From NCBI GenBank assembly GCA_902801625.1, contig CADCJI010000023.1, forward strand, positions 1 to 64,000: a stretch of DNA of 64,000 nucleotides, in the 5' to 3' direction. The stretch comes from an uncultured Bacteroidia bacterium. GTDB taxonomy: Bacteria; Bacteroidota; Bacteroidia; Bacteroidales; F082. This document shows, in pieces, positions 11,038 to 38,172 of this stretch; positions within the stretch are counted from its first letter, which is position 1, and the number at the start of each line of letters is the position of its first letter. A model generated the notes under the pieces. That model was given only the letters and a program-made list of their open reading frames with translations, made no database searches and was not told the DNA's origin. Position numbers and translations under genes: made by a program.

Positions 11038-11050
11038 GACAGGTCGGTTT

Positions 11051-19168: not shown

Positions 19169-20230
19169 TTATTGACAGTCGTTTTGCCCACTTTCGATTT
19201 CCTTGAAGTCAAGCGGTAAATAGTCGTTTTCTGCAAAGCGATCAAAGTCGGATTGGAATAGCCGGTCTTGTATGATTCGATATTTTTCAAATTCGGTTTC
19301 GGCGAATGCCTTTGCCTCTTCTGCTGTGACTACACCGGCATCGGTCAGGACAGCATCCCCACCTGCTTGAAGGATGATGTCTATGCGTTTGGCCCAGTCC
19401 TCCATTGTCATGGGAATGTGACGGTTGGCCATACGTTCGGCCATGTCCAAAGCGGCGTTTACCAGTCGCCCCATGTCTTCCAACTCCAACTCGTTCAAGT
19501 AGTTCTTCGCGATACTGACATCGGTTTTTACAATCTTTCCGTTTGGGGCATTCTCCCAAGTGTTCAATCCCATGTGTTCTTTCTCGGCATTGGCCCGACC
19601 AACGATAAGCTCGGCAGCTGTATGACCGTGGACAGCATAATGCATCTTGTTTTGCACCATTTTGAAAAATAGTCTCGTTGTCGGTGCGTCTTTGTTGTAA
19701 TCAATAGCAGTGGCGTAGATGTCAGTCAGTTTTTGGTAGAATCGACGTTCGCTGAGTCTTATCTCCCTGATTTCGGCCAACAGATGCTCGAAATAATCCT
19801 CGCCAATAAAACTTCCGTTTTCCATGCGCTTTTTGTCGATGACATAACCGCGTATGGTGAACTGGCGGAGTACATAGGTGCACCATTGTCTGAACTGTGT
19901 GGCTCGCAACGAATTAACCCGATAGCCAACGGAAATGATGGCATCGAGATTATATAGCTCTGTCATTCTTTTTACTTCTCGTTTGCCTTCAAGTTGAACT
20001 ATTTCCATTTTGGAAACAGTTGCTTCTCGCAAGATTTCCCCTTCAAGATAAAGGTTGTTTAGATGCTTGTTGATGGCAGGAACACCCACATCAAACAATG
20101 CTGCCATCGCTTTTTGTGTGCACCAAATGGTCTCGTCCTTGTAAACCACTTGGATGCCGTCTTCTTTTCCTTCCGCTTGGAAAATCAGGAACTCCGCAGT
20201 GCTGTTTCTTATTTCGAGTTGTTTACTCAT
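19169..20230 (-). CDS. RhuM family protein
   Basis: 353-aa protein of the virulence-associated RhuM family (first seen in a Salmonella pathogenicity island, function unknown). Start ATG 20230 (MSKQLEIRNSTAEFLIFQAEG); longer frames cross the promoter. The family pattern is clear: IWCTQKAMAALFDVGVPAINKHLNNLY (a helix-turn-helix-like part), ILREATVSKMEIVQLEGKREV, LYNLDAIISVGYRVNS, RATQFRQWCTYVLRQF, then KKRMENG and the C-terminal IVGRANAEKEHMGLNTW. Such genes travel with mobile or defence islands in Bacteroidetes. Here it faces the toxin-antitoxin pair. Confidence 0.85.
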   Translation of the reverse strand: MSKQLEIRNSTAEFLIFQAEGKEDGIQVVYKDETIWCTQKAMAALFDVGVPAINKHLNNLYLEGEILREATVSKMEIVQLEGKREVKRMTELYNLDAIISVGYRVNSLRATQFRQWCTYVLRQFTIRGYVIDKKRMENGSFIGEDYFEHLLAEIREIRLSERRFYQKLTDIYATAIDYNKDAPTTRLFFKMVQNKMHYAVHGHTAAELIVGRANAEKEHMGLNTWENAPNGKIVKTDVSIAKNYLNELELEDMGRLVNAALDMAERMANRHIPMTMEDWAKRIDIILQAGGDAVLTDAGVVTAEEAKAFAETEFEKYRIIQDRLFQSDFDRFAENDYLPLDFKEIESGQNDCQ

Positions 20231-20248
20231 TACAGGTTGTTTTCTTTG

Positions 20249-20256
20249 CAAAGATA
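20249..20256 (-). promoter_or_regulatory. -7 box of the RhuM-like gene
   Basis: TATCTTTG on the minus strand, 19 bases before the start at 20230. No good -33. Confidence 0.45.
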
Positions 20257-20279
20257 ATGTTTTTTTGCGAAGAAATAAA

Positions 20280-20328
20280 CGATAATAGTCGGAATCGCGA
20301 TTTTTTTCTGAGATTCCGACTACTATCG
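20280..20328. repeat. 17-base inverted repeat upstream of the RhuM-like gene
   Basis: CGATAATAGTCGGAATC (20280-20296) and GATTCCGACTACTATCG (20312-20328) match at 16 of 17 positions with a 15-base spacer. It lies about 50-100 bases upstream of the RhuM-like start. Confidence 0.8.
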
Positions 20329-20370
20329 ATGTTTGGATTGAAGAACGGTTAACCCTCTTTACCATAGCTT

Positions 20371-21159: not shown

Positions 21160-21674
21160 GGTTTCATTCTCATTTAAGTGTTTGCTATGAGTGTTTTGTC
21201 TCGTATTTGCTTCGTACCAAGCAGGTAACAGGCTCGGGAGATATTCGATAGTCTTTCGCTACATCCTTGTTATTTGTCCTATTTTCTATCGAATAAATAT
21301 CGAACAACTATCGGAGAACTATCGAACAACTAACGAAGAAATGTCGGACTTGCTCCCTGCCTGATAGGTGGCTGCTTCTTGCCAAAGGCGAGCCAACCGA
21401 TGTGCAAAAGTACATATTTTTATTGGAACTCAGCAGCCATGTCATGCCGACGTGGTTTTGTGCGATGGCGGGCATCTATGGCTGCGGCCTACGGGAATCC
21501 GCCCATCTCAATATGAAAACCCGACATTGCATATCGGGGTGTGTTAGGGTCGTCCCTTTGGGACTTTGGCTTGACGCATTGTCATCGTCTGCGTCTCGCA
21601 GACGGCGGTGGGTGGTGCGTGATAGGGATGCTGTTAAGCTCAAGACAAAGGCTTCGGTGGGGTGAGGAACGATT
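21160..21674. other. 515-base gap with direct repeats and three palindromes
   Basis: No gene is seen. 21243-21335 has repeated TATCGAACAACTA and ATTCGATAG/CTATCGAAT units. Three small palindromes follow in a row: CCCGACATTGCATATCGGG (21520-21538), GTCCCTTTGGGAC (21552-21564) and GTCTGCGTCTCGCAGAC (21587-21603). The region is the left border of the A+T-rich defence island. Confidence 0.6.
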
Positions 21675-24293
21675 CTAATACAATTTATCAGACAAATATT
21701 GAAGGAGCTGGCTGAAATATTTGTTTCTGTTGTCTTTATATGAAGTATAATTTCGGGATGTGATATAGAACCACATGTATAAATCAGAATCATCTTCTTT
21801 TTTTGGAGTGCGATTATTGCCCTCTACATACTTCTTGTAAAGGTTGCAATTGTGGAGAAAATTATATTCTGTCATGTTGTGAGGATAATGCACTAGTTCT
21901 TTTTCGAGGGCATCAATTTTGAGTATTTCTTCTGAAGTCAGTTCTGTTAGCTGGCTGGCTTTCTGATACCACCTATATAGATATCCTTCATATCCTTGAC
22001 TAGCAGCAGGGAATCTTTTATTCTTTAAAACAAAATCTTTGAATGATTTTAACCAATCGTCAAATGTCTGAGGCATTAATATGTAATCATCCTTATATTT
22101 TCTATTCGGACATCCAACATAGTCACCACAGAAGAGCAATAGTTCTCCCGTTGCTATCGTTTGCCAGATAATAGAAGAAACACTTTTCTCATTAGAATCT
22201 GGCCTACTTTCTAAAACTTGCTTTGTTATGTCTTGAATTTGGACGGGCTCTTCTGCTTTCTTGACAATTTCGACTGCGATTTCTCGAATGCTACCCACAA
22301 GTTCTCCCCATTCCTTCAACCCCCAAAAAGAAGATTTTCCAATAGAAATAATACGAGGGTCTTTTGTAAGAAAGGGGGTAATTTGGGATGAGTCATTGAA
22401 CTTGCAAGGTAATCCCATCTCAAAACAACTTGTCTGTAGTTGATAGAAGATCTCGTCACGATGCAATCTGACTCCTGCTGTTTTCATAATCTCGTATATT
22501 TTTCCACTATAATCAATCTTGTTGGCTTCTACCACAATAGTATCATTTTCAATTTGGACATCACAAAGTGTTTGAAAAAGCCAAATGAGTAGCCATAGGA
22601 CTTTCTCCTTTTCAATTCCAGTAGGTCTAATTCCATTCCAATAATTCTCATTATCAATAAAATAACTAACAATTGGTATGACAATACTTTCCGTTTTTTT
22701 TACTTTTTGCAGACGGAGGACTTCTTTAATAGCTCGATTGTAGTTGTATTTTTTCAATCGATTATCAACATAGAAATCTGGTGTTAAACAATCCGTTGTA
22801 AGATAATATGCAGACAATTCTTTCTTATTGTAATCTATCCAAAAAGCCTTAAAACCTTTCAAATGCAATACAAAAAAAAGATAATTCTTTGAAATGCATG
22901 GCACATCCTCTACAAATTGAAATAGCCCTTCCATATTCCGATGATTTTGGATATATTCTATAAGAAAATCTCGTTCCTCAATAATACAATCCATCTTCAA
23001 ATTACTTGTAAAAAAGAATGGATTATTATTGTCGGTTTCGTATGTTCCCCAATTTTCGAGTTGTAATAGGTGTATAATACCAGTACTCCCGTGTTTGATT
23101 CTTCTAATAGCTTTCTCATATATCTGACGCGTTCTCTCCCGTGTCAAATCAAACTCAGCAGCGATTTCGTCTATCGACATTGGCACAGTAGGTTCCACTG
23201 ACCATGCTTCAAACAATGGTAATCCATTGCCGTTAGGGTGAATACAAAAGTTCTTCATTCCCCATACCTTCATAACTACCTTTTGTTCTCGTTCTGTCAA
23301 ATTACTCAATGATTTATGCAACAGATAAATCATGGGGTGATGACTGTATTTTTCTTTGAAAGCAATTATATAGTCTAAATCAGCTCTTGAATAATTTCTG
23401 AGTACTGGAGTGTTAGAAATTAAAGACTCTAATGTTTGTTGTTTTATGGCCTTTTCTTTGTGATAGTTTTTCAAAACCATACCAAACCTAAGACCTTTTG
23501 AGATGACTACATCCTCTATTTCCTGAATGGATTTCCGTCCCAAATTACGAAATTTGAAAAGGTCTTCTTTTTCAAACGCTACCAAATCGCCCAAAGTCTT
23601 TATTCCAGCTGTTTCTAAGCAATTAAATGAGCGGACAGACAAGCCAAGGTCTTCAATTGGAACATTTAATACGGAAGTATCAACAATCTCATCTTGCTCA
23701 TCATCCTCGGTTGCATCTTTGAGAATTGTAGAATCTTCGTTTGGGACATCTTTTGGTTTTGTGTTTTTCCCCTGCAAAAACGTCTTTATATCAAATCCAA
23801 ACCAAAGTCCTTTAGAGATGACAGCTTCCTCTATTTCTTGAAGGGATTTCTTCCCCATATTGTGAAACTTGATAAGGTCAGCTTTATTGAGTACCACTAA
23901 CTCTCCCAAAACATCTATTCCAGCTGCTTTTAGGCAATTAAGTGGGCGAACAGAAAGGCCAAGGTCTTCAATTGGAATGTTTAATATGGAAGAAGGATCT
24001 TTTTGATAGCATAATATTAAACTTGATATTTTTTCAAGTTCTTTTATCGTTTTATTTCCACAATTCCGGAGATTGGCGAATTGGTGGTTTCCTGATGAAA
24101 TAAAAAGCAGGAAATCATCATAATCATAGAGCTCATTGTCTAATAAAATATTCTTTGCCCTTACGGACAGAGCATCACGAAGTCGTTCAAAGTATTTTTT
24201 CCCACTATTATTACTCTCATCCTCTAATGGAATTTCACTATGATGTATGGATTCCAGAAGATTATTTTGGTACTCTTGTATGTTATCCATCAT
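21675..24293 (-). CDS. large DNA-binding protein with alpha-CTD-like, sigma-4-like and winged-helix parts
   Basis: 872-aa protein, last gene of the leftward defence operon (its start overlaps the previous stop by 11 bases). Residues about 30-95, 105-165 and 215-270 are three helix-hairpin-helix units like the RNA polymerase alpha C-terminal domain (twice IEDLGLSVR-NCL-AGI ... GELV/GDLV ... GKKSLQEIE / GRKSIQEIE). About residues 335-405 resemble sigma region 4 (LTEREQKVVMKVWG, then IDEIAAEFDLTRERTRQIYEKA). The later half has HARE-like winged-helix segments (MKTAGVRLHRDEIFYQLQ; PVQIQDITKQVLESRP) and a helicase-associated-type end. No catalytic core is seen. It could recruit the operon's machinery to DNA or tune its transcription. 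Confidence 0.75.
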   Translation of the reverse strand: MMDNIQEYQNNLLESIHHSEIPLEDESNNSGKKYFERLRDALSVRAKNILLDNELYDYDDFLLFISSGNHQFANLRNCGNKTIKELEKISSLILCYQKDPSSILNIPIEDLGLSVRPLNCLKAAGIDVLGELVVLNKADLIKFHNMGKKSLQEIEEAVISKGLWFGFDIKTFLQGKNTKPKDVPNEDSTILKDATEDDEQDEIVDTSVLNVPIEDLGLSVRSFNCLETAGIKTLGDLVAFEKEDLFKFRNLGRKSIQEIEDVVISKGLRFGMVLKNYHKEKAIKQQTLESLISNTPVLRNYSRADLDYIIAFKEKYSHHPMIYLLHKSLSNLTEREQKVVMKVWGMKNFCIHPNGNGLPLFEAWSVEPTVPMSIDEIAAEFDLTRERTRQIYEKAIRRIKHGSTGIIHLLQLENWGTYETDNNNPFFFTSNLKMDCIIEERDFLIEYIQNHRNMEGLFQFVEDVPCISKNYLFFVLHLKGFKAFWIDYNKKELSAYYLTTDCLTPDFYVDNRLKKYNYNRAIKEVLRLQKVKKTESIVIPIVSYFIDNENYWNGIRPTGIEKEKVLWLLIWLFQTLCDVQIENDTIVVEANKIDYSGKIYEIMKTAGVRLHRDEIFYQLQTSCFEMGLPCKFNDSSQITPFLTKDPRIISIGKSSFWGLKEWGELVGSIREIAVEIVKKAEEPVQIQDITKQVLESRPDSNEKSVSSIIWQTIATGELLLFCGDYVGCPNRKYKDDYILMPQTFDDWLKSFKDFVLKNKRFPAASQGYEGYLYRWYQKASQLTELTSEEILKIDALEKELVHYPHNMTEYNFLHNCNLYKKYVEGNNRTPKKEDDSDLYMWFYITSRNYTSYKDNRNKYFSQLLQYLSDKLY

Positions 24294-26259
24294 TGTGCTC
24301 CTTTCTCCGCAACTTTTTTGTTGGGTGCTGGTCGTATTCCTTCTTTAACATATAAAGTTCGGTGCCTTCGGTAACAATGTCTTTTCGGTAGTTTACATAG
24401 CACTGCAATAATTCTCTCACTTCATTGTCGGAGAAATTATGAATGACATTGACATCAAATACGTTTGTATGTATTACCTCCTGAACTTTATTCCACTCCG
24501 ATTCGGTCATTTTTTCTTTGCAATGATGCCACAAACCCCGCCAGTGTTCTGTACCACGACCGTTCTTCTCATCAAGCCATTTGAAAAAGAATCGATAAAG
24601 TATGAATGTTTCTGGCATTTCGAGCAGCTCATAATATTCTTCCTCAGTATGGCCAAATGCTTCACCGAAAAACTCTACACCTTTTCCGACCTTACCTTTC
24701 GTACTATTTAGAATGGCCTGGATTGCCCGGATATATTTACGGTTCCAATGCACACCAATATAGTCCCTGTCGTGACTGTTCTCTCCGTGTAACGGGTGAT
24801 ACTTCATAGGGAATGAATATATGTTCACCCCTAACTCCTCGCAAAGTTCAACGTTAATCTTTAGCCTTCGGTAAAGGTCAACGGGCTCGTCCTTGAAGTT
24901 ATAAAGCAGATAGTTGGAAAAATCTTTGATTCCTGCCGCGACGCTCCATCGAACTGCCTTCTCATAAGCTGGTCGTGTTTTTATATCGTCGAAAGCGATT
25001 CGTAATGGACGTATGGCAATAGAGGCCAGCAGGCGAGCTTTCTCTGCTGTAAATAGACGCGCATCTACACCTTGATTGAAGTCTACATATCGCTGTTTCA
25101 ATCCTTTGTAGAAATGCTTGTCGTAATATGGCTTAATCTCGTCATAGGCGGCAAGCAGATTCTCTTTCTTAGAAGTTATCAACTTCTTGATATGGTATTT
25201 TTCGAGTATCTTATATACCTCAAATGATTCGTCTTTGTTACTTAGCGATTCGTAAAACTCGCTCATTAATGACTGTGTCTTCCGAATATATGCACGGTCG
25301 TTCCAGCCATCACGTAGATTTCTTACTGAGATTTCCAGCATATTAGGTTGTGCGAATTTGGCACCACGTTCAAACCCGCAAGCTTTAATCTCGTTGATAA
25401 TATCTTCGAACCGTTCAGATGCAAGGACGTTGTTGTCCATCAACAGGAGGTCTTTTTGGTCGCCATATCGTTCGCGAATACCGTTTATGCGGTCAGTCAG
25501 CGAAATATAAGGGGTGTAAACTGGCTCAAGTGTTGGGACAGCACAGAATGGACAATGACGAATGCACCCTCTAGACATATAGCCATAGAAAGCATTCGAC
25601 ATAGGATATTTATAATCTATCTCGTCGAGGATAGAGTAATCCAACGGCAACTCGTCAATAATCTGAGTATCTCCCTTGTCGAACACACCTGGCTTGTTTA
25701 GCACACCCACCGAGGGTTTTACACCCGTAGCTTCGTACAACTTGTCTGGCTGGATGGATGCTAGCACACCGCCTACATTTAGGTCTTTAGGCTTTTTGAC
25801 AAGCTGCTTCGCGAATAATATTGTCTCAACTGTAATGTCCCAATAAAATGTGAATAGTGTTGTAACGCAAATTCGATCCCATTCGGGATGCAACTTCCAA
25901 GTACCTTTCCAGTAGTAGTTCTTGTAGTCGTCAAGTTTCCCCCTAATCAATAATTCAAAGTTAGAGTCTTCTATGCCAATACTATCCAGAGCCTCGTGTT
26001 TGCGAGTCTTGATATAGTCAAATACTTTATCTTTTCTAATCCCCCAATCAATTGAGTTGTCAATCAACTCTAATTCGGCAATACATTTGTCTGCAATGCG
26101 TTCAATCACAAAGGTTGTCAAATCACCTTTGAAGAACACAACATCCCAATTGCCAAGATTCCTATAATAGGTTGATATTTTCATCAATCCTATTGGGGGG
26201 AATTTATTGGCGTAATTAGGCTCTATGAGCAGAACTTTCTTTCTTGCCTTCGGTCTCAT
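24283..26259 (-). CDS. radical SAM protein in the defence operon
   Basis: 658-aa protein with a 4Fe-4S radical SAM site C232-x3-C236-x2-C239 in YMSRGCIRHCPFC. The N-terminal 200 residues (KKVLLIEPNYANKFPPIGLMKI) look like the cobalamin-binding-type domain that precedes many radical SAM enzymes, though the DxHxxG cobalamin motif is not seen. After the barrel comes a long C-terminal part rich in aromatics with PLHGENSHDRDYIGVHW and FFGEAFGHTEEEYYELL. The substrate is unknown. It lies 4 bases after the HSP90-like gene and overlaps the next by 11 bases, so it belongs to the operon rather than being a bystander. Confidence 0.8.
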   Translation of the reverse strand: MRPKARKKVLLIEPNYANKFPPIGLMKISTYYRNLGNWDVVFFKGDLTTFVIERIADKCIAELELIDNSIDWGIRKDKVFDYIKTRKHEALDSIGIEDSNFELLIRGKLDDYKNYYWKGTWKLHPEWDRICVTTLFTFYWDITVETILFAKQLVKKPKDLNVGGVLASIQPDKLYEATGVKPSVGVLNKPGVFDKGDTQIIDELPLDYSILDEIDYKYPMSNAFYGYMSRGCIRHCPFCAVPTLEPVYTPYISLTDRINGIRERYGDQKDLLLMDNNVLASERFEDIINEIKACGFERGAKFAQPNMLEISVRNLRDGWNDRAYIRKTQSLMSEFYESLSNKDESFEVYKILEKYHIKKLITSKKENLLAAYDEIKPYYDKHFYKGLKQRYVDFNQGVDARLFTAEKARLLASIAIRPLRIAFDDIKTRPAYEKAVRWSVAAGIKDFSNYLLYNFKDEPVDLYRRLKINVELCEELGVNIYSFPMKYHPLHGENSHDRDYIGVHWNRKYIRAIQAILNSTKGKVGKGVEFFGEAFGHTEEEYYELLEMPETFILYRFFFKWLDEKNGRGTEHWRGLWHHCKEKMTESEWNKVQEVIHTNVFDVNVIHNFSDNEVRELLQCYVNYRKDIVTEGTELYMLKKEYDQHPTKKLRRKEHNDG

Positions 26260-26263
26260 CGTA

Positions 26264-28012
26264 TTATTTGAGGCTATTCACAGCGATTTCCATTAGCTGG
26301 ACAACACTCTTTTTATTGGAAGAAGGACAGACAACAAGCATTGTACTAAATACTCGCTTCAACAAATCAACCTGTTCAGGGCTATAGTTTTTGCCTTCAA
26401 GTGAAGCCAGTATTGCATCCACTTGTGATTTCGGTTGAACATGAGCCTTCGTTTTTTGCGGAGTAATAGCAGGTGTACTGGGTGCAATTGTTGGTTGCTG
26501 TGTTGAAGGTGATGAGGTCGGTTTGGTCTCAGGCGTTATTACTGAAGTGGTTGAACTATGGGAACTCGCATGAGAAGTTGTGTTAGTTGGTTCATCCGTT
26601 GTTGTTCCAGTTACCATCTCAAGTATATCAGGTTCTTGCTTTTGCGGTTTTTGTTGTGGAGCAAGATGCTTCTCAACTTCGTCTTTTAACCCGGTGTTAT
26701 ACTTGCTTTGATAGATGGCTATGACGTCAATTATTTCGTCTTTACCATCAGGAGCAGCAGCCTTTTTGAATTCGTTAACATGCTCCTGTAGCTTGTTTTT
26801 TAATGGTGCCGCAGCATTGGAAAATTCAGGATTGTTGAGTTTTCCAACAACTTCACTAATTTTATTCAATGCTGTTTTTAGTTTATTAGCCCGATAATAA
26901 ACTTGGCGTAAGGTATCTGAGAAATACTTCTTGATTTCTACAATTAGTGCGTCAGCTTCTTCTCCAGCAGCCAGCCCTTGTCTTCCACTATCTGGGACAA
27001 TATTATCGTTGGTGATGAATATTTCTCCGTAGAAATATTTGTTGCCCCTACTTTCTTTGAAGCAGGTGTTGAGTATGTTCTTGTCAAGTGAAATATTGTG
27101 TTTGCGCAATCTTATTCCTGCGCAACCATCTTTGTCCTCATTGATTTGTACAGAGAACTCCGTCACGGCATACCAGCCCCATCCAAGTGAGCCAAATTTC
27201 GGGTGTTTGGGTAGTTCAAAGTATCGAATCCTCTCAATAGGATCGCCAGTGCCAACGATTGTCACGCCATATCCCTTTTCAATATCTGAGAGGTCGTTGA
27301 GAGATACCCGAATCTTATCAATTTGTTTGTGCTTCTTGACAAATTCAGTTTGAGGGCAGCTATTGATTAGGGAGTTGAACGGAACGGAATAGTCGATTGG
27401 GGCATATTCCGTTATGTAGTTCTTAATCTCATCAATATCAAGCAGTATTTCACGGGAATAGATGACATTTTTAAGGCGAACGGTGAACTTATGTTCTTCT
27501 GCTTTTGCTGGGGAAGTATGCGTTGTGCAAATTTCGCGCATTGCATCTTCGGCTGAAATGTCAGTTTCTTTTTTCTCAACCATTTTCCTCAACTTCCGTG
27601 TATCAAGTGAGACAATGGTGGAAACATCTTCACCCTTATAGGTGGTCTCAAATTCGAGTATTTCACAATATCCGCCCCCAGAAAGGCGACCAACGCCAAA
27701 CTGACCAGCAGTATCAACACCATTTTTTACACTATTAGCAATGTCGGTGAGTATTTTCACTGCTTTATCACTACGAATGCCTGTACCGTTATCCTCGATA
27801 CTAATATCGTTATTAGTGATAATGATTGACACTCGGCCATCCTTCTCTTGAGAAAGAATGCCTAACTTTACTGCCTCGTTGATGGAGTCAAGTGCATTCT
27901 GAATATATTCTCGGTAAATGCAGCGAGGATTACTGTATAGCTGTAACATCAGCATCTTTAACAAATCAATGCCGATGACTGGATTATCAATGTTTTGCAT
28001 ACTATTAGCCAT
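26264..28012 (-). CDS. HSP90-like (GHKL) ATPase
   Basis: 582-aa protein whose first 200 residues form a GHKL ATP-binding fold: N-box YREYIQNALDSINEA (Glu35, Asn39), G1 box ISIEDNGTGIRSD and G2 box AGQFGVGRLSGGG. The middle part (residues about 200-360) matches the HSP90/MutL-like second domain. A long Pro/Thr/Ser-rich linker (TSHASSHSSTTSVITPETKP) leads to a small helical C-terminal domain. The architecture suggests an ATP-driven clamp that works on protein or DNA-bound partners. It overlaps the HerA-like gene by 8 bases. HSP90-type ATPases are found in several phage-defence loci, which fits the company here. Confidence 0.8.
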   Translation of the reverse strand: MANSMQNIDNPVIGIDLLKMLMLQLYSNPRCIYREYIQNALDSINEAVKLGILSQEKDGRVSIIITNNDISIEDNGTGIRSDKAVKILTDIANSVKNGVDTAGQFGVGRLSGGGYCEILEFETTYKGEDVSTIVSLDTRKLRKMVEKKETDISAEDAMREICTTHTSPAKAEEHKFTVRLKNVIYSREILLDIDEIKNYITEYAPIDYSVPFNSLINSCPQTEFVKKHKQIDKIRVSLNDLSDIEKGYGVTIVGTGDPIERIRYFELPKHPKFGSLGWGWYAVTEFSVQINEDKDGCAGIRLRKHNISLDKNILNTCFKESRGNKYFYGEIFITNDNIVPDSGRQGLAAGEEADALIVEIKKYFSDTLRQVYYRANKLKTALNKISEVVGKLNNPEFSNAAAPLKNKLQEHVNEFKKAAAPDGKDEIIDVIAIYQSKYNTGLKDEVEKHLAPQQKPQKQEPDILEMVTGTTTDEPTNTTSHASSHSSTTSVITPETKPTSSPSTQQPTIAPSTPAITPQKTKAHVQPKSQVDAILASLEGKNYSPEQVDLLKRVFSTMLVVCPSSNKKSVVQLMEIAVNSLK

Positions 28013-29672
28013 TTGGATATTGTTTATATGCTGGACGAGGGAATCTGATATTAACGAGAGACCGTAGCGCTGGGTTCGAAATAATGTACTCTCCCGGGCT
28101 CAATCGGGTCATCATGCTCTGATACACTTTTGGAATATATCGGTAGTCGGACTTTGACACTTCGATAGCATTGGTGCGACCATAAGCTTGGGTGGCGCAG
28201 TTGCCTTTTACTCTGTCGTGGATAGCACTTCTGAATTGCTCAACAGAGAATAAGATAATGCCCAATGAACGACCACGTTCAGCAATGTCAAGCAGTTGCT
28301 GAAGGATGGGTGAACTCTTGGGAACATCATTTGAAGCGTACTTATTCAACTCATCAACGAATAGAATAACTTTGTCAGGAATATTGTCACGCTCTGCTCC
28401 TAATTTCATGTCGTAAATTGCTCTCGCGACACTTCCAAAAACGAAACTTTGAGCATTATCATCAAGGCGGGCGATATCAATAACCATGACCTGCCCGTTG
28501 GTAAGGTTGTTGGATATTTCGTCAGTCAGGTCGATTTCTCCATTTTCTTCGTTTAAATTTGAAATGAAGATGTTGCTTTGGATAGCTTTCTTTACACACC
28601 TTTTGAACTTACGCCAACTGGTCACCATTATTTCGTTCTTTTTCCCACCATTCGCTTCGGTCTTTGTGCATTCGTCAATTTTTTCAAGTAGAGTGGGCCA
28701 ACTATCAACGGCATTAAAAGGTTCTTGCCGGTTGATGATATAATTGACGCAGCTTTCAAGTGTCCCACTGGAGTCATCTTCGTTTGCCAATAGAAGGTCT
28801 ATCTTCTCAATACATTTTTCATACGTAAATTTGTACTTCTTGGCCTTGCCTGCCTTTATCTGCGTTTTGACATCATCGGGGTGAGCATAGCTTTGGACAT
28901 TAGCTGTAATCTTGTCCTTACTGTATGGATAGTAGTATCTGACGTTTTCAAATGGTTGAGCGGAAAGACCCAAATCAGAGTATATATTTTGGTCTTTGCC
29001 AGACAGCTCGGTGTTGGGTTCGTCTATTGCCATCAAATCTCGGCCTTTGACGTTGAAGAAAACAAACGCCACTGTTTCATTATTCTCGGTACGGAATTTT
29101 TCTTGAATTGCTTTCAATAGGAACATCGAGAATGATGTCTTAGCTGCAAGACCTGAAATACCTGATACATTGATATGTGCTCCGTCAGGTCCCAGTAAGA
29201 AATGTGAATTTAGGACAACTGGTACTTTAATTGAAGCATCGCCTTGATACATCTGCAAGTAACCACACACCAATGGGTTTTGTACATCTTTTTCGCTTAA
29301 TCCCAATGCAACCTTGATGTCGTTCTCATCGCAAAGAGAGACACGACGGTCGTTCAACACGGGGGTGTAAATGTTCTGTGTATTGCATGAAACACGGACT
29401 TTCACATAGTTCATCCCAAGTCTGTTCATGTTCCCGACATTGTCATCTATGGCACCAAAATCACTTGAGATATAACTTGTGAAGTGACTAGGGGAATCCG
29501 TCACATGGTTTATCTCTTCAATTACACCATAGGTGGTTGAGTTGCATTCGTGCTCAACCTTTACGATGTCGAATGGACTTAGTATTTGACGTTTGTCTGT
29601 CCAAAAGAAAAACTCGTCAATGGTTGATGGTGAACTTTCTGTTGCGGATACTTTACCGATAATCTTAGTCAT
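28005..29672 (-). CDS. HerA-like DNA-translocating ATPase
   Basis: 555-aa protein of the HerA/FtsK superfamily. The N-terminal part resembles the HAS barrel (ILSPFDIVKVEHECNSTTYG). A degenerate Walker A lies at residues 171-180 (GISGLAAKTS), with Walker B KVILFVDELNKYA and the arginine-rich part QQLLDIAERGRSLGIILFSVEQ, then SGEY-like LSPGEYII near the end. HerA rings push DNA into the NurA nuclease during end resection or anti-phage action. The gene starts 1 base after the NurA-like stop and overlaps the next gene by 8 bases, the classic HerA-NurA pairing. Confidence 0.85.
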   Translation of the reverse strand: MTKIIGKVSATESSPSTIDEFFFWTDKRQILSPFDIVKVEHECNSTTYGVIEEINHVTDSPSHFTSYISSDFGAIDDNVGNMNRLGMNYVKVRVSCNTQNIYTPVLNDRRVSLCDENDIKVALGLSEKDVQNPLVCGYLQMYQGDASIKVPVVLNSHFLLGPDGAHINVSGISGLAAKTSFSMFLLKAIQEKFRTENNETVAFVFFNVKGRDLMAIDEPNTELSGKDQNIYSDLGLSAQPFENVRYYYPYSKDKITANVQSYAHPDDVKTQIKAGKAKKYKFTYEKCIEKIDLLLANEDDSSGTLESCVNYIINRQEPFNAVDSWPTLLEKIDECTKTEANGGKKNEIMVTSWRKFKRCVKKAIQSNIFISNLNEENGEIDLTDEISNNLTNGQVMVIDIARLDDNAQSFVFGSVARAIYDMKLGAERDNIPDKVILFVDELNKYASNDVPKSSPILQQLLDIAERGRSLGIILFSVEQFRSAIHDRVKGNCATQAYGRTNAIEVSKSDYRYIPKVYQSMMTRLSPGEYIISNPALRSLVNIRFPRPAYKQYPNG

Positions 29673-29673
29673 A

Positions 29674-30849
29674 TCAAAAGAGATTTAGGATAATGTTCTG
29701 ATTTATATAATTTGACTTGCAAAAGCTTTCTGTGAGAAATACTGGATAAAGGTGGTTTGCCCATCTGTTGTCTTTACCGTAACAAGTGGGATATGCTTCT
29801 CGAATAAGATTGGCACTAATTATGTCGACAAGTTCAGTGTTGAGAACACCGCCCTTTTCTTCTAAAACCATTTCGCATTTTATGATATCTGAGAAGTTTG
29901 TCTCTCTAAAATTACTATTACGAAGCCTCAGATACCACATGGCAAACTCAGATTGACTTCCAGATGCTGGATAGCGATATACCTTAGTTCGTTCATAAGG
30001 TTTCAAATTTGCAATGGTTTTTGAAAGACGATGTCCTTTGAAGTCTCTTAACAAGTCTGGATTAAACAGTTTAGACACACCAACAACATGCTTGTAGTTG
30101 GATCGAAGTTGGTTCCATTCAGTAGTTGAAAGATTTGAATAGCTGGAGTTGTATTCAATAGAGCCATCTTTGATTAGAAAATGGTCGTTATCTAGGCAGT
30201 TATCTTTGCACAGTTGGGCTACCATCAACTGTTCCTCATCGGTCATCTCATTTTGTATCTTTGCTGTGCCGCTGTTTTTATAACCATTTTTGTCGGCAGT
30301 GATATCTTTTGAGCCATCCGTAGGATAGAGAAGTATCTTGTCAATTTTGATACCATGTTCCTGTACAAAAACGTTTTTTTCCAACTCTTCGTTTATCTTC
30401 TCGCAATACATGCGACAGAAGTTTGCTTCTTTGTCATCGTCATAATTGAAGTTGCGAGGTAAAGAGAGCAACACCTTGCGTGTAACGGAATGGCATTTGA
30501 AAGTATCTCTATCCTTTCTCTCACAGCAACCTACAACTATTTGACCAGCGAGGAATGGGAAGATGCGATTCCCAATAGCTATGTCATCTACCTTGTACAC
30601 ATGTCGGGAACCATCAAGAAAGAATGAAAACAATGGAATGCTTGCCAACTTCATCATATGAGCATTGATTAAGACGGTCTCTTTTCGAGACATGTCCGAC
30701 TCTGCAATTTGGGCACTGTTCAGTTGAAGGGCGGGTTTGTCGTCGTAATCGAGAGTATCTTGGTCGTTTTGATCAAGAATTAGCTTTTTTGTTTTATAGC
30801 AAGAATACTTCCCTTCGCCATCTTTTTCTATAAAGTCCAGTATTTTCAT
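29674..30849 (-). CDS. NurA-like nuclease
   Basis: 391-aa protein, first gene of the leftward operon. The nuclease assignment rests on the NurA-type motifs: SFFLDGSRHVYKVDD (catalytic Asp79 in the DGS strand), a second acidic strand near DKILLYPTDGSKD, and FLIKDGSIEYNSS, plus a neighbouring HerA-like ATPase. NurA is an RNase H-fold 5'-3' exonuclease and endonuclease that is driven by HerA. Two in-frame clusters of Asp and the spacing between them fit the family. Start ATG 30849 follows a non-coding 758-base intergenic stretch. Overall identity to known NurA proteins must be low, so the call needs a profile search. Confidence 0.7.
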   Translation of the reverse strand: MKILDFIEKDGEGKYSCYKTKKLILDQNDQDTLDYDDKPALQLNSAQIAESDMSRKETVLINAHMMKLASIPLFSFFLDGSRHVYKVDDIAIGNRIFPFLAGQIVVGCCERKDRDTFKCHSVTRKVLLSLPRNFNYDDDKEANFCRMYCEKINEELEKNVFVQEHGIKIDKILLYPTDGSKDITADKNGYKNSGTAKIQNEMTDEEQLMVAQLCKDNCLDNDHFLIKDGSIEYNSSYSNLSTTEWNQLRSNYKHVVGVSKLFNPDLLRDFKGHRLSKTIANLKPYERTKVYRYPASGSQSEFAMWYLRLRNSNFRETNFSDIIKCEMVLEEKGGVLNTELVDIISANLIREAYPTCYGKDNRWANHLYPVFLTESFCKSNYINQNIILNLF

Positions 30850-30948
30850 TTTATCTTTTTTCTGGACTCCCTTAGGAGTAATGGTTCGACTCCCTCAACC
30901 ATAAAAATCAGGAAAAAAAGACGTGGAGCCAGTTCTGATGCCCGTTCC

Positions 30949-31104
30949 ACTCGTTGAGGCCTTCGCATTGCCCGGTCAGTCGAAACGAGCAACGCTGAAA
31001 ACCCCACGCCAAATGATATATACGGAAATGTATAATCATTACATGGGGCGTCCCCGCTGCTTTGCCTTTGACTGACCGTTTGAGTTTGCGAAGTTCCAAC
31101 GAGT
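30949..31104. repeat. large imperfect inverted repeat
   Basis: Left arm 30949-30981 (ACTCGTTGAGG, CTTCGCA, CGGTCAGTC) pairs with right arm 31070-31104 (GACTGACCG, TGCGAAG, CCAACGAGT), arms about 33 bases with interruptions, spacer 88 bases. The spacer itself has TATATAC/GTATAAT and CCCCA/TGGGG complementarity. Confidence 0.65.
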
Positions 31105-31288
31105 CAAAACCAAAGCGTTCAGAAAACGCCTTTGTCAATAAGTTTGTCTTGCGCTTTGCGTTTGCGCAAAGACAAGGCAAAAATAAAGAAAATATGAATA
31201 AGAAAGAAAAAGGATAGAAAATTCCCTTTTCTATGGGAGCATGGGATGAAAATATAAGAATGAATACAACAAGTACAAAAAAAAACAT

Positions 31289-31296
31289 TATTTTTG
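31289..31296 (+). promoter_or_regulatory. -7 box of the retron/Gabija-like operon
   Basis: TATTTTTG, about 310 bases before the first ATG of the operon (31608). It is the best TAnnTTTG match upstream on this strand; no clear -33. Confidence 0.4.
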
Positions 31297-31607
31297 CAAA
31301 ACCAAGGCTCTGTCAAGATTGGAGGATTGGTCTTTAAGATGTTTATATACAATTCCTTGGCAATAGTTATTGGGGCTTAGGAGGCGAAGTTGTAGAAGGG
31401 TTGAGATATGCTTAGATAAATGCTCGGTTGGGTCAAGGCCGACAGGAATCAGTGGAATGCTGGAATTTTGAAGGCTGGGAGGATTGAACTTTTTGATAAT
31501 TATGTTGGTTTTTACAGAGGGATATAATCACGTTTATCAATATGCATAAATCGAATTGAGTATTAAGAAATAGAGACTTGGAGTGGGGATGATTATAATA
31601 AGAAAGA

Positions 31608-32915
31608 ATGAGAATACCTTCAGAAGATTTACAGAAACGGATAGTTGATACCATTAGATACAGATTCTACGACAGATTGGATCTGTATGATGTGTATCGC
31701 TGGCTCGATAATTTTAAAGATGACGAGCAGGAACTGGCCGTGTCTGTATTTGAAAAACTGGAGTATTATAGAGAGGAGGACTTGCTCAACATATTGTGCA
31801 AGGGCCTGTATCACATCATACATGATTATTGGGATGAGAAAGGCAAGGCTGCACATATCAGGTTTATGCCTTTGGGAAGGCCAGGTAAAAGCGGACATGT
31901 GATGCAGTATCTGGTGAAGAACCTGCTAAAAACGAATACTCCAGCACACACAAAGGACGTATCTTTTTTCAACCATCCCAAGGAGATTGATGTACAGACA
32001 CTGACGGACGAGGATGTTGTGGTATTTTTGGATGACATCATTGGCTCTGGTGATACCTTCATTTCAGATACGAAGCTTATCACCGAAAGAAGGAAAAACA
32101 ACGGTGAGATAGAAGTGAAGCCGAATGAATGGACTATCGGGAATTTGGTCAAAGCAGATGTTCCATATAAGATTGTCTTGCTGAGTTGTATTTTGATGGA
32201 TAAAGGCAAAAAACGGTTGGAAGAACAGTTCCCTTATGTGAAGTTGTATGGCGAAGAGCGCATCCATGCTTTCTGCAAGAATAAGTCTCCATTCGGAGGC
32301 TACTTGAAGATGAAGCAGGTAAGAGAGTTCTGTTTTAAATATGGCTCAGAATTATGTCCTCAAAGGGAACTGGGCTATTCCAATTCACAGGCTCTTGTCT
32401 TATTTGCCCATGCAGTACCCAATAACACATTGCCAATTGTTTGGGTAGATGAGTATGAAGAGGATGGGATAAGGAAATCTTGGCAACCGCTGATACCAAG
32501 GAATCAGATGAAGAAACAGAACATAGCCTTCATTCAAAGAATAGATAACAACAGATGGGTGTTCAAACTGTCTCAATATTTCGGAGTGGATTTGGAAGAT
32601 CCAGAATGGAAGGGCGTGATACAGGACAAGAATGTAAAACTGACATATTTGTTAAGATGCCTAGAAAAGAATATTCCTGAGGTTGTCATTGCAAATGATA
32701 TGGGTCTGACACATGAGGACATGACAGTTCTGTTTGATGAGGGTGAAAAACTGGGCATGTGGGACAATGACCACCACGTAACACATGATGCTCAAAAGGC
32801 TCTTGCAGAGGCTGCTAAGGTTTTCAAAATACAGGAGAAAGAAGAAAAGGGAGTCAAAATGGTTGATGACCGAAACTATATGTACGTACCAGAGACTTTC
32901 AGGGGGAAGTCATAG
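31608..32915 (+). CDS. phosphoribosyltransferase-like protein of a retron/defence operon
   Basis: 435-aa protein. The core is a type I phosphoribosyltransferase-like fold with a clear PRPP-loop sequence VVVFLDDIIGSGDTFISD (residues 137-154), preceded by LLKTNTPAHTKDVSFF. Upstream is an all-helical part (DLYDVYRWLDNF, EKLEYYREEDLLNILCKG). The C-terminal third (residues about 330-420) looks like a winged helix: VKLTYLLRCLEKNIPEVVIANDMGLTHEDM. PRTase-like proteins of this kind are known as accessory or effector genes of some retrons. It starts the rightward operon and is followed 135 bases later by a retron reverse transcriptase. Its substrate is not predictable. Confidence 0.75.
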   Translation: MRIPSEDLQKRIVDTIRYRFYDRLDLYDVYRWLDNFKDDEQELAVSVFEKLEYYREEDLLNILCKGLYHIIHDYWDEKGKAAHIRFMPLGRPGKSGHVMQYLVKNLLKTNTPAHTKDVSFFNHPKEIDVQTLTDEDVVVFLDDIIGSGDTFISDTKLITERRKNNGEIEVKPNEWTIGNLVKADVPYKIVLLSCILMDKGKKRLEEQFPYVKLYGEERIHAFCKNKSPFGGYLKMKQVREFCFKYGSELCPQRELGYSNSQALVLFAHAVPNNTLPIVWVDEYEEDGIRKSWQPLIPRNQMKKQNIAFIQRIDNNRWVFKLSQYFGVDLEDPEWKGVIQDKNVKLTYLLRCLEKNIPEVVIANDMGLTHEDMTVLFDEGEKLGMWDNDHHVTHDAQKALAEAAKVFKIQEKEEKGVKMVDDRNYMYVPETFRGKS

Positions 32916-33062
32916 AATTCTAGCTTTAAGTGAAGATGAAACACTCTTTTGCCGGTATGTCCCGTGGGCATACTGAAATTAAAACACCATTATACTGATA
33001 ATGCTGAACAAGGATTGTCCAGCATTGTCACTGACGTGACAAGAACGTAGATGACTATGACT
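32908..33062 (+). ncRNA. candidate retron msr-msd RNA
   Basis: The gap between the PRTase-like gene and the reverse transcriptase can fold into consecutive hairpins: GTATG-t-CCC/GGGCATAC (32955-32973), AATGCTG-a-ACAA/TTGT-c-CAGCATT (33000-33026) and GTCAC/GTGAC (33027-33040). A TAGC (32921-32924) could hold the priming G. AGTCATAG (32908-32915) is complementary to CTATGACT (33055-33062), which would act as a1/a2. Position directly before the RT is typical. The 8-base a1/a2 match is short, and a2 would overlap the RT start, so this is a hypothesis. Confidence 0.4.
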
Positions 33063-34100
33063 GAAACCTGGGAGTCTCTTTTCAAGGAAAGGGCATTGGA
33101 GGAAGGACGCTCTGAAGAGTTTATCTCCCAATGCATCGAATATGCGGGAAAATTGCATGAGAAAAATCTTCCCGTAATCTTTGATTTTGTGCATTTGGCA
33201 TACTACCTTGGATTCTACTCTGAGAAACTGCAAGGAATTGTGGCCAATGTTGAGGGACATTACCGAACCTACCATATAAGGAAAAAATCGGGCGGTACTA
33301 GAATGATTGAGGCTCCTGATGCGATGTTGAAAGATGTGCAACATTGGATATATGGTAATATACTTTGCAGGGACAAGTCTATAAAGGATTGTGTGCATGG
33401 GTTTGTGCCTGCTTTGACAGAAAAGGATAAGGTTCGTGGAATACTGTCGAATGCTGTACCTCATTCGGGACACGACTGGCTGATAAACCTGGATTTGAAG
33501 GACTTTTTCCATACGGTCAAGTTAGATATGGTAAAAGCTTATTTTGATTCATTGGGTTATGAGGAGGAAGTGTCGAAAACGCTTACTGCCCTCTGCACAA
33601 TGAAATCAAGACTTCCGCAAGGTGCACCCACGAGTCCAATGCTATCGAATCTGATAGCAACCAAGATGGACGAGGAGATGATGGCATATTGTGGGGAACG
33701 TGGAATTACCTACACAAGGTATGCTGATGATTTGACTTTCTCTGCCAACTATGATGTGGAGATGCCTCTTGTCAAAGAGCTGTATGCCATCATTTTCAGG
33801 AACGGGTTCATTGTGAACCGAAAGAAAACAAAGATTCGTTATCCTGGATATAAGAAGGAAGTGACTGGACTGACCGTGACCAATGGCGTTCATGTCCCCA
33901 AGAAATACAGGAAAGAAGTTTGGCGAGAGTTGTATTTCTGCAAGAAGTTCGGGGTTTATGAACACTACCACCAGATGGATACGGACAAGGGCTTGTATCA
34001 AGCTTGGCTAAGGGGGAGAATCATGTTCATCAGGCAGATAGACCCTGCGTGCGGGAATAAGATGCTTAAGCAGTTTAACGAATTGAACTGGCTGGTATAA
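33051..34100 (+). CDS. retron-type reverse transcriptase
   Basis: 349-aa reverse transcriptase. Hallmarks seen: KKSGGTRMIEAP in the finger region, the retron-specific NAxxH motif (NAVPH, residues 134-138), LDLKDFF (147-153), RLPQGAPTSPMLSN (188-200), the catalytic YADD (224-227) and the VTG signature VTGLTV (271-276) that reads the msr stem. There is no maturase or integrase part, so it is neither a group II intron nor a DGR enzyme by its own sequence. Retron RTs make multicopy single-stranded DNA that guards the cell against phage with an effector. ATG 33051 is used; ATG 33057 is also possible. OLD and UvrD-like genes follow at once. Confidence 0.9.
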   Translation: MTMTETWESLFKERALEEGRSEEFISQCIEYAGKLHEKNLPVIFDFVHLAYYLGFYSEKLQGIVANVEGHYRTYHIRKKSGGTRMIEAPDAMLKDVQHWIYGNILCRDKSIKDCVHGFVPALTEKDKVRGILSNAVPHSGHDWLINLDLKDFFHTVKLDMVKAYFDSLGYEEEVSKTLTALCTMKSRLPQGAPTSPMLSNLIATKMDEEMMAYCGERGITYTRYADDLTFSANYDVEMPLVKELYAIIFRNGFIVNRKKTKIRYPGYKKEVTGLTVTNGVHVPKKYRKEVWRELYFCKKFGVYEHYHQMDTDKGLYQAWLRGRIMFIRQIDPACGNKMLKQFNELNWLV

Positions 34101-34132
34101 GATTGATTATTAACTAAGAAAAGACGCGAACT

Positions 34133-35701
34133 ATGTATATTCAAAAGATAAAACTCCACAATTACAGGCGCTTCAAAGACCTTGAAATACCTTTCAAGGA
34201 AGGACGGAACATTCTTGTGGGAGATAATGAGTCAGGAAAGTCTTCTATTCTAGAGGCGATAGATTTAACCGCAAGGGGTAGCCGTCACAGAGTAGAGGAC
34301 ATTGGTCTTGAAACGTTGTTCAATGTGCAAGTGATAAGGGAGTTTATAGAAGGAGACAGACAATTGGCGAATCTTCCTGTGCTTTTTGTAGAGTTGTATC
34401 TTGGTGGTATTGTGGAAGAAGGGCTGGACGGAAATGAGAATAGCGAAGGTCGCCTGGCTTATGGTTTAAGGATGCTGTTTGAGCCCGATCCATTATTAAG
34501 CCGTCAGACTTTAGCAGTTTTACAAGCAGAAAATGCTTATTTCCCGTTTGAGTTCTATACAATATCGTTCACGACCTTTAGTGGAGAATCGTATAATGGT
34601 TATACTAAAAAGGTAAAGACCGTTTTTCTTGATAACAGCACTATTGGGAATGAGCATGCCCTGAATGAATTCATTTCCACCATTTATGGAGTGGCTTTAA
34701 ATCAGGTTGAACAACTGGCGACAAAACATAGTTATGGCAATTCAAAGGCAGGTTTCAAAAACACAGTGTTGACTCCATTCAACAACAAGCTACCAGACGG
34801 ATATGCCTTTGCGGTGAAAAATACAGGAAAGAATTGCTTGGAAAACGATTTGACCATTGAGCTTGGTGGTGTTCCAATCTCTGAAAAAGGTACAGGTATT
34901 CAGTGTATGTTGAAAACACAACTTGCATTGAAACGTTCGCCAGATATTCCTGTCATCATGATTGAAGAGCCGGAGAATCATTTAAGCCATTTGAATATGC
35001 GGAAGATGATTGAAGGTATTGAGGCAAACAATGAGGCGCAACTCTTTATTTCAACGCATAATGACCTTATCTGTACCCGATTAGATTTGAGAAATTGCAT
35101 ACTGATGAATAGTGCAACGCCTGAAAGGGCGATTTCCATGGATTTCATTGATGATGCCACGGCAAAGTTCTTTATGAAGGCTCCTGACAACAATATGCTT
35201 CAATTTGTTTTGGCGAAGAAAGTCATACTTGTGGAAGGTGATGCGGAATTTATTCTTATGGATGTGTTCTGCCAAAGAGTATTTGGCCATCCTCTGAATG
35301 AACTTGGCATAGATGTGATTGCTGTGGATGGAAAGTGTTTCAAGCGTTATCTTGAAATAGCAAAGGTGCTTAATAACCGTGTGGCTGTGATAACAGATAA
35401 TGATGGCAATTATGCGGAGAATATCATGTCCGCATATCAAGGCTATATGAATAATGAGTATGACAACATCAGGGTTTATGCTGATACAAATAATCAAAGA
35501 TTCACATTTGAGGTGGCTGTATATGCCGATAACCAAGCTGATTGTGATGTCATGTTTGCAGGAGGACGTAGGACGTTGACTGTACAACAATACATGTTGG
35601 CAAATAAGGCTGAGGCCGCATACAAGCTGCTTTCAGAGAAAAGAGAAACGATTGAAACTCCGCAATATATTAGAGAAGCGTTGGAATGGGTAAATGCTTG
35701 A
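34133..35701 (+). CDS. OLD-family ATPase/TOPRIM nuclease (GajA-like)
   Basis: 522-aa protein with an ABC-type ATPase split around a coiled region and a C-terminal TOPRIM nuclease. Walker A is GDNESGKSS (residues 30-38), a signature-like EKGTGIQ at 251-257, Walker B VIMIEEPENHLS near 274-285, and the H-loop FISTHND. TOPRIM residues are Glu368 in VILVEGD and Asp422/Asp424 in VITDNDGN. The layout equals GajA of Gabija and the OLD effector of some retrons. It begins 32 bases after the RT stop and its stop overlaps the helicase gene, so it is one transcript with both. Confidence 0.88.
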   Translation: MYIQKIKLHNYRRFKDLEIPFKEGRNILVGDNESGKSSILEAIDLTARGSRHRVEDIGLETLFNVQVIREFIEGDRQLANLPVLFVELYLGGIVEEGLDGNENSEGRLAYGLRMLFEPDPLLSRQTLAVLQAENAYFPFEFYTISFTTFSGESYNGYTKKVKTVFLDNSTIGNEHALNEFISTIYGVALNQVEQLATKHSYGNSKAGFKNTVLTPFNNKLPDGYAFAVKNTGKNCLENDLTIELGGVPISEKGTGIQCMLKTQLALKRSPDIPVIMIEEPENHLSHLNMRKMIEGIEANNEAQLFISTHNDLICTRLDLRNCILMNSATPERAISMDFIDDATAKFFMKAPDNNMLQFVLAKKVILVEGDAEFILMDVFCQRVFGHPLNELGIDVIAVDGKCFKRYLEIAKVLNNRVAVITDNDGNYAENIMSAYQGYMNNEYDNIRVYADTNNQRFTFEVAVYADNQADCDVMFAGGRRTLTVQQYMLANKAEAAYKLLSEKRETIETPQYIREALEWVNA

Positions 35702-38142: not shown

Positions 38143-38172
38143 TTGCTGTTCAAATAAACTTTACTATTTTTG
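38143..38172 (+). promoter_or_regulatory. promoter of the AAA/DUF4143 gene
   Basis: TTG (38143-38145), 19-base spacer, TATTTTTG (38165-38172), 60 bases before ATG 38233. Confidence 0.6.

Follow-up and report, generated by a model that had tools for sequence, protein, structure and literature searches.

A four-gene NurA-HerA, GHKL ATPase and radical SAM core with a variable fifth gene: a candidate mobile system against foreign DNA

Five joined genes and their products

The first 64,000 nt of contig CADCJI010000023.1, from an uncultured Bacteroidales bacterium and referred to here as the window, carry on the minus strand a set of five genes headed by a NurA-family nuclease and a HerA-type translocase. 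An original prediction made from the letters of the sequence had pointed to this set as five tightly joined genes, and an open reading frame (ORF) check has reproduced its coordinates, gaps and overlaps exactly. In gene order, the first two genes lie 1 base apart, the second and third overlap by 8 bases, the next pair lies 4 bases apart and the last pair overlaps by 11. The five genes, with the basis of each assignment, are the following (for all other loci, named L0xx or L1xx, coordinates are positions within the pieces read from other genomes or contigs):

29674-30849, minus strand: NurA-family nuclease with an RNase H-like fold, 391 amino acids (aa); Foldseek and conserved residues
28005-29672, minus strand: HerA-type translocase, 555 aa; profile match to PDB 7f6d_B
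26264-28012, minus strand: HSP90-like GHKL ATPase, 582 aa; PF13589
24283-26259, minus strand: radical S-adenosylmethionine (SAM) enzyme with an N-terminal Rossmann-like domain, 658 aa; CxxxCxxC motif and fold
21675-24293, minus strand: multi-domain DNA-binding-type protein, 872 aa; PF03118 at 9e-47 and PF04545 at 4.2e-8

The identity of the first protein as NurA is borne out by two NurA structures, although profile libraries miss it: no match was obtained in Pfam, PADLOC or NCBIfam at E<=1, and hence none to a curated NurA profile. When its AlphaFold2 model (mean pLDDT 77) was submitted to Foldseek, it matched the NurA of D. radiodurans (7f6d_G, 3.9e-10), TM1739 of T. maritima (1zup, 3.9e-8) and a TdpAB chain (8wfd_G, E 1.3e-5). 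The protein displays the motifs FLDGSR (D79) and LIKDGS (D228), and all 28 NurA sequences retain D79, R82 and D228, with K86 present in 27 of them. The predicted RNase H-like fold and the conserved acidic residues together place it in the NurA family. The HerA assignment of the second protein has been confirmed as well, since a profile built from 21 relatives matches the HerA of D. radiodurans (7f6d_B) at 1.4e-45. PADLOC models for HerA and mad8 match at 1.3e-5 and 1.6e-7, respectively, and the Pfam DUF87 score lies below its cut-off. Its P-loop is unusual and non-canonical (GISGLAxKT), the Walker B DE pair corresponds to residues 440-441, and G171, G174, K178, T179, D440 and E441 are kept in 27 of 27 sequences. 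At the sequence level its identity as HerA is secure, as is its place among HerA/FtsK-type ATPases with Walker A and B motifs. Sequence and predicted structure thus show NurA and HerA to form a nuclease-translocase pair.

The HSP90-type ATPase announced for the third gene stands in part. Its GHKL N-terminal domain is nearest to HSP90/HtpG, but a full-length HSP90 is unsupported. PF13589 is matched at 8.5e-10, above cut-off, and the profile of the third protein matches HtpG at 6.1e-14 with the match limited to profile positions 11-136. The NCBIfam HtpG model gives 28.8 bits against a cut-off of 371 and covers residues 16-95 only, leaving the HSP90 middle and C-terminal domains without a counterpart in that model's match. 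The ATP-motif residues E35, N39, D74, G78, G103, G106 and G108 are kept in 25 of 25 sequences, whereas G76 is replaced by alanine in 13 of the 25. The protein also carries a variable stretch of its own at residues ~360-520. The clamp action first suggested for it is hypothetical.

The fourth protein was rightly read as a radical SAM enzyme, a claim now resting on its cysteines and on fold matches. C232, C236 and C239 make up the CxxxCxxC motif and all three are kept in 23 of 23 sequences; the Pfam Radical_SAM score stays under its cut-off (16.8 vs 29.5 bits). Foldseek with a structure model (pLDDT 85) returned TsrM (2.5e-7), MgmA (4.4e-6) and AprD4 (8.3e-5), and OxsB more weakly. The motif and the modelled fold support membership of the radical SAM superfamily, and a layout resembling the class B or cobalamin-type enzymes is suggested with modest strength. 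A sulphur insertion of the RimO/MiaB type was considered but not adopted, its sole support being an NCBIfam RimO match at 0.042 while the fold search favoured TsrM, MgmA and AprD4. A viral fold library yielded one match at E<=0.001, to an uncultured-phage protein labelled 'Radical SAM', which is uninformative, and among PDB sequences the alignment of the radical SAM proteins matched nothing relevant.

A conserved four-gene core and a recurrent radical SAM family

A search of one-per-species genomes with HerA alone, covering the genomes in part, retrieved 28 loci. In 23 of these, NurA, HerA, HSP90 and radical SAM genes follow one another in this order on one strand, which rules out chance neighbours, and the remaining five (L010, L019, L022, L027, L033) run into contig ends. 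Co-occurrence outside the source genome, which the original prediction had proposed to look for, is therefore found for four of the genes. Two of the 23 call for comment: the contig of L024 begins inside NurA, and the HerA frame of L034 is interrupted (9998-11653), being split into ORFs of 412 and 137 aa, so that this copy may be broken or mis-sequenced. Judged by record title, most carriers are Bacteroidota: Bacteroidales, often of rumen or gut origin, Prevotella, Dysgonomonas, Roseivirga, Chryseobacterium, other Flavobacteriia, Cytophagales and Chitinophagaceae. Beyond this phylum they include Anaerovibrio and a few metagenome-assembled genomes labelled Patescibacteria and UASB270 that are possibly mis-binned. 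All four genes are also carried by the viral-collection contigs L045 and L046.

The radical SAM profile matches 6 of 395 Bacteroidota genomes, including the source genome and one fragmentary match, and the four others all hold the four genes (one, L052, is probably L021 again). GHKL matches at E<=0.001 occur in 5 of 60 relatives and are strong in three, the source genome included. Pairwise divergence of the four core proteins correlates (Spearman 0.78-0.92), while their correlation with the fifth protein reaches only 0.44-0.58. Gene order and protein divergence show the four core genes to be inherited together, and their distribution marks the core as rare, mobile and patchy. No description of the same gene set was found in the open-licence PMC literature, a search that leaves preprints and subscription journals outside its range.

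The core is accompanied by different genes in different loci. A second GHKL gene and a gene for a protein of 319-374 aa lie inside the operon in L020, L023, L031 and L054, and genes for NsnB-like ATPases (Nsn being the Menshen naming) do so in L021 (13202-15405), L022 (9017-9777) and L024 (2029-3393), with an NsnC-like partner found in L021, the sole locus of these that was tested for one. L026 contains a 479-aa protein inside the operon without Pfam or PADLOC match, and in L017, L029, L030 and L034 the four genes stand alone and are followed by genes on the opposite strand. A plasmid search with HerA gave six records at 24-30% identity, and the one read, L038, adjoins SbcD and SMC genes.

The radical SAM family is not confined to this core. 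Among 12 plasmid records with relatives, the two that were read are conjugative alphaproteobacterial plasmids in which a DGQHR protein, the radical SAM enzyme and a GHKL ATPase follow in that gene order (L035, 8890-16699; L037, 3979-11978). The DGQHR protein is DpdB-like by PADLOC in L035 and of the DndB family by Pfam in L037, and the two GHKL ATPases match the HSP90 profile at 1.4e-80 and 9.7e-86. Both loci also hold an adjoining PIN_8-type protein with a second GHKL (~1e-69), and the whole, a DGQHR-radical SAM-GHKL set plus a PIN_8-like-GHKL pair, possibly constitutes a second system using the same module. The arrangement of L056 and L058 resembles that of L037, with a DndB-family DGQHR protein and a GHKL, and in the viral-collection contig L049 a DndB/DpdB-like protein precedes the radical SAM gene. 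L050 (2-14726), another viral-collection contig, brings together in one cluster a UvrD-type helicase, DrmA, DrmB, a NERD helicase, radical SAM, GHKL and Mrr; six other ORFs scanned there gave no methyltransferase family match, on a contig that ends 4.7 kb past the radical SAM start. In L047 (8251-11620) and L048 (8361-11614), likewise from the viral collection, a PD-lambda-5_A ParB-like protein lies directly 5' of the radical SAM gene. PMC9519451 presents PD-lambda-5 as a compact system of restriction-modification (R-M) plus abortive infection with a methyltransferase match, and by analogy the radical SAM gene would occupy the place of that methyltransferase. In Marinitoga camini virus 1 (L036, 6933-10759), NurA and HerA are accompanied by a radical SAM relative of 360 aa encoded on the opposite strand, and the 17.6 kb that were read contain no GHKL gene; this is possibly a minimal version of the set.

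The search of viral collections returned 62 loci, several of which repeat L045-L051. All were scored and 29 of them (L056-L084) inspected, L078 and L079 being possibly the same gene. A GHKL gene is directly adjacent to the radical SAM gene in 14 of the 25 contigs (L056-L080) that hold the family at E<1e-50; the other 37 of the 62 are weaker relatives or were left uninspected. Of the set of families put forward as one not recognised before, the four-gene core is undescribed in the family libraries and papers searched, and its radical SAM and GHKL families recur together in other DNA-targeting architectures.

These neighbourhoods bear on the substrate of the enzyme. Action on DNA is conceivable but tentative, falling somewhat short of an even chance. 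A different kind of defence would arise if the radical SAM enzyme modified one of its partners in the complex, be it HerA, NurA or the GHKL ATPase, thereby licensing or silencing the nuclease. Its nearest folds include TsrM, which methylates a tryptophan-type substrate, and MgmA, whose substrate is a protein glutamine according to the PDB title, and the GHKL gene lies directly 5' of the radical SAM gene in many NurA-HerA loci. However, no GHKL is seen near the gene in L047, L048, L049 and L051, and no NurA-HerA is seen nearby in L035, L037 and L050, so that no single protein partner is always available as substrate. Modification of a partner protein is thus considered unlikely.

The variable fifth protein

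The last gene of the window encodes a protein of several DNA-binding modules, whose parts are located as follows:

22734-24293, minus strand: hypervariable N-terminal part, residues 1-520, delimited by pairwise identity with L007
23823-23996, minus strand: alpha-CTD unit 1; PF03118 at 79.4 bits, 57% identical to the RpoA-like protein of the host
23508-23684, minus strand: alpha-CTD unit 2; PF03118 at 86.5 bits, 57% identical to the same protein
23091-23309, minus strand: sigma-70 region 4 (sigma-4) unit, residues 329-401; PF04545 at 30.4 bits
22086-22550, minus strand: HARE-HTH-related winged-helix region, residues 582-736; homology to L141

For comparison, the RpoA-like protein of the host itself scores 79.6 bits with PF03118. 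Three alpha-CTD units and one sigma-4 unit had been read from the sequence; two of the former are indeed strong, but the third is weak and degenerate (33% identical to the host protein), while the sigma-4 unit is upheld by PF04545 at 4.2e-8. Residues 582-736 align by phmmer with the orphan homologue L141 (domain 1.5e-16), which within the aligned part matches HARE-HTH (PF05066) at 5.6e-7, above the Pfam cut-off; on the fifth protein itself this region gives only DUF7669 at 0.014, below cut-off. HARE-HTH is termed a domain recognising modified bases in PMC10853773.

Not all loci have this gene. It was detected in the window, in the genome G474 and in 9 of 21 complete loci extending past the radical SAM gene, and it was undetected by tblastn in the other 12; L016 and L024 end too early to be judged. 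Five genes as the conserved unit are thereby ruled out, and the five-gene set originally proposed has to be narrowed: four of its genes are conserved, but the fifth is an add-on found in only some Bacteroidales loci. When the C-terminus of the protein was searched for in 100 near relatives, 11 of them matched, among which the source genome, G474 and G024 (probably the L018 contig) have the operon; the locus L146 is probably L018 again as well. The orphans L140-L144, of 508-684 aa, have C-termini related to that of the fifth protein and several of them bear sigma-4 or alpha-CTD units, and the 14-16 kb read around them hold no member of these NurA, HerA, GHKL and radical SAM families. G012 contains a 119-aa piece matching the C-terminus, and the matches in G019 and G482 were not inspected.

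The fifth protein is the most variable of the operon. Over 6.9 kb ending where gene five starts, the cores of the window and L007 are 95.5% identical in DNA; in the fifth protein, pairwise identity then falls to 26% (residues 1-520) before recovering to 44% (521-640) and 80% (641-872); against L018 the same three parts show 68, 89 and 99%. Across ten five-gene loci mean identity is 0.37 for protein five, as against 0.69 for HSP90, 0.84 for radical SAM, 0.85 for NurA and 0.90 for HerA. The steep drop in identity next to near-identical core genes suggests that the N-terminus has been swapped for a diverged homologous segment. With its hypervariable N-terminus and better conserved, HARE-HTH-related C-terminus, the protein suits the role of a subunit that recognises targets no less than that of a transcription factor, the likeness first noted for it.

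It could still be argued that the fifth gene is a mere transcription regulator of the operon and no part of the machine, as alpha-CTD and sigma-4 units are modules of RNA polymerase and the gene comes last and escapes detection in over half of the complete loci just mentioned. This is improbable, for a regulator of one conserved operon is not expected to be its most variable protein, the conserved C-terminus and hypervariable N-terminus resemble specificity subunits, and MzaA and PglW of other defence systems bear related modules. A further proposal takes the alpha-CTD and sigma-4 units for decoys of the host RNA polymerase which, when bound by phage takeover proteins, would trigger NurA-HerA. 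Phage proteins that seize alpha-CTD or sigma-4 exist (T4 Alt/ModA and AsiA, for example), the two strong alpha-CTDs are nearer to the RpoA-like protein of the host (57%) than to an E. coli segment (43-50%), and the N-terminal region is the fastest-changing part of the system. Nevertheless, common descent would by itself explain the resemblance to the phylum of the host, it is odd for a mimic that L008 and L013 score under the cut-off for alpha-CTD and 7 of 11 members under that for sigma-4, and orphans of the L141 type show the same architecture without the operon. A decoy role is accordingly held to be quite improbable.

Genomic setting, proposed function and known systems

The operon is indeed A+T-rich as first claimed: its G+C content is ~0.36-0.41, below the ~0.45-0.57 of most of the window. 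The low G+C continues through a neighbouring operon to ~38 kb, and a second low-GC stretch appears at 55-58 kb. The neighbour, separated from the NurA-first operon by a divergent gap of ~0.8 kb, had been described as retron/Gabija-like and is now identified by profile matches as:

31608-36711, plus strand: retron type III-A-type phosphoribosyltransferase (PRTase) and reverse transcriptase (RT), then GajA-like and GajB-like genes

The corresponding E values are 2.2e-110 (PRTase), 1.4e-109 (RT), 1.9e-106 (GajA-like) and 5.7e-50 (GajB-like). The low-GC island is flanked on one side by a RhuM-family protein (19169-20365, minus strand; PADLOC candidate PDC-S05) and on the other by an AAA_14/DUF4143 ATPase (38170-39372, plus strand; PADLOC candidate PDC-S01). 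3' of the operon, positions 21418-21680 of the window match L007 in two places: one stretch corresponds to the sequence immediately behind the fifth gene of L007 (92%), and another, overlapping the first, to a site ~2.3 kb further on (90%), a repeat at what may be a cassette boundary. 5' of NurA, a leader of ~540 bp (30854-31394) is common to L018 (77%) and partly to L007 (78%), being less conserved than the core genes that come after it.

The weakest alternative, an island-borne operon for stress DNA repair by end resection instead of defence, can point to the HerA profile matching D. radiodurans HerA best and to a HerA-NurA relative presented as an end-resection complex in PMC9960219, but it is very improbable given the rarity and patchiness of the genes (radical SAM in 6 of 395 genomes; GHKL in 5 of 60 relatives, three of them with strong matches), the low-GC island beside a retron/Gabija-like operon, the presence of the four genes in viral-collection L045 and L046, and the hypervariable fifth gene.

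That the operon serves in defence against foreign DNA is probable, as judged from its sequences and setting. The fuller proposal, a mobile restriction-like system with self-marking based on the radical SAM enzyme, comes close to an even chance without reaching it, and it is favoured because four lines of evidence agree. The nuclease-motor pair has a restriction precedent in TdpAB. What otherwise different DNA-targeting cassettes have in common is the radical SAM gene. It appears to stand in the place of the marking enzymes in DISARM-, Dpd- and PD-lambda-5-like sets. Finally, the accessory protein is hypervariable, of DNA-binding type and endowed with winged helices of the modification-reader type. 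According to this proposal, HerA hexamers would thread DNA into NurA, which would degrade it, and the radical SAM enzyme would supply the discrimination between self and non-self, with the GHKL protein serving it as an ATP-gated loader or proofreader. Most likely it would do so by marking host DNA chemically, the task of the methyltransferase in classical systems. In the branch of the window, the alpha-CTD/sigma-4/HARE protein would bind DNA by its replaceable N-terminal array to select targets, and its better conserved C-terminus would attach it to the machine. Replacement of the array would then alter the target; the four-gene versions would have to discriminate without this protein.

Several observations weigh against the self-marking proposal. 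The fold matches of the radical SAM model are modest (TM-score 0.31-0.36 by query and 0.39-0.54 by target), TsrM, MgmA and AprD4 act on peptides, proteins or small molecules and are not known to act on DNA, and no DNA-recognition domain was recognised in the protein by Pfam, PADLOC or NCBIfam. An adjacent GHKL is unseen for 11 of the 25 viral-collection radical SAM genes (L068 being cut by its contig). As for the fifth protein, alpha-CTD exceeds the Pfam cut-off in 9 of 11 operon members (not in L008 and L013) and sigma-4 in only four (the window, L009, L014 and L139), the N-terminal parts are still homologous (23-41% in 7 of 9 pairwise comparisons), and in L015 even the C-terminus is just 29% identical. 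Beyond the window, with its retron/Gabija-like neighbour, the support from defence islands is modest: only one of nine large flanking proteins hit PADLOC (type I R-M), in a small, non-random sample picked by hand from seven other loci. The best solved relative of HerA comes from a complex studied for DNA end resection in PMC9960219.

A broader and more doubtful extension would make the radical SAM enzyme and the HSP90-like ATPase a DNA-marking module of its own kind, creating an unknown DNA modification in at least four kinds of DNA-targeting system, with the fifth protein aiming the version of the window. These kinds would be NurA-HerA, DrmA-DrmB, DpdB/DndB-like sets with PIN or helicase, and PD-lambda-5_A-like sets (the last without GHKL), and in them the module would replace a methyltransferase or a phosphorothioation enzyme. 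If marking were true, bacteria would have in radical chemistry a further means of labelling their DNA, next to methylation, phosphorothioation and deazaguanine exchange, and an HSP90-family ATPase would be part of a DNA-labelling machine. The weaker claim alone still leaves a mobile system of four conserved genes that is apparently undescribed, and the radical SAM-GHKL pair, common to several putative defence architectures, offers a handle to find more. As a candidate new defence system the locus holds up as a conserved, mobile and defence-like set undescribed in the libraries and papers searched, although of four genes and not five.

Among known systems, membership of MADS, DISARM, Dnd/Dpd and R-M is ruled out by profile scans of the five proteins. 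For classical R-M, no DNA methyltransferase was matched among them in Pfam, PADLOC or NCBIfam. With MADS the operon shares the weak match of the mad8 model to HerA (1.6e-7), and no other mad model matches the five proteins at E<=1. DISARM consists of DrmA and DrmB plus a methyltransferase; PADLOC finds no Drm match among the five proteins, but both its radical SAM and its GHKL family also occur elsewhere in a DrmA-DrmB cassette, that of L050. Likewise, no Dpd or Dnd match was obtained at the thresholds used (Pfam, PADLOC, NCBIfam), while on plasmids and in viral-collection contigs DpdB/DndB-like proteins are found next to members of this radical SAM family. MZA, through the sigma-like MzaA (2.3e-6), and BREX, through PglW (1.3e-8), share the sigma-4/alpha-CTD modules, which alone match, the scores being 26.8 vs a cut-off of 800 and 33 vs 990. 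TdpAB-TdpC pairs a HerA/NurA-like restriction unit with phosphorothioate marking by TdpC, and its NurA-like chain 8wfd_G resembles the nuclease of the window in fold (1.3e-5); here a radical SAM enzyme is present, and no phosphorothioation enzyme was recognised by Pfam, PADLOC or NCBIfam, no TdpC profile having been used. The NurA-HerA end-resection complex of D. radiodurans and archaea has in common the nuclease and translocase families, their adjacent genes and catalytic motifs, whereas the present set adds GHKL and radical SAM, is rare and mobile, and has a NurA unseen by profiles. Sir2-HerA and HerA-DUF4297 are HerA-based systems with effector partners and thus share a HerA-type ATPase coupled to an effector; in the operon described here that partner is NurA, and two extra enzymes are added to the pair.

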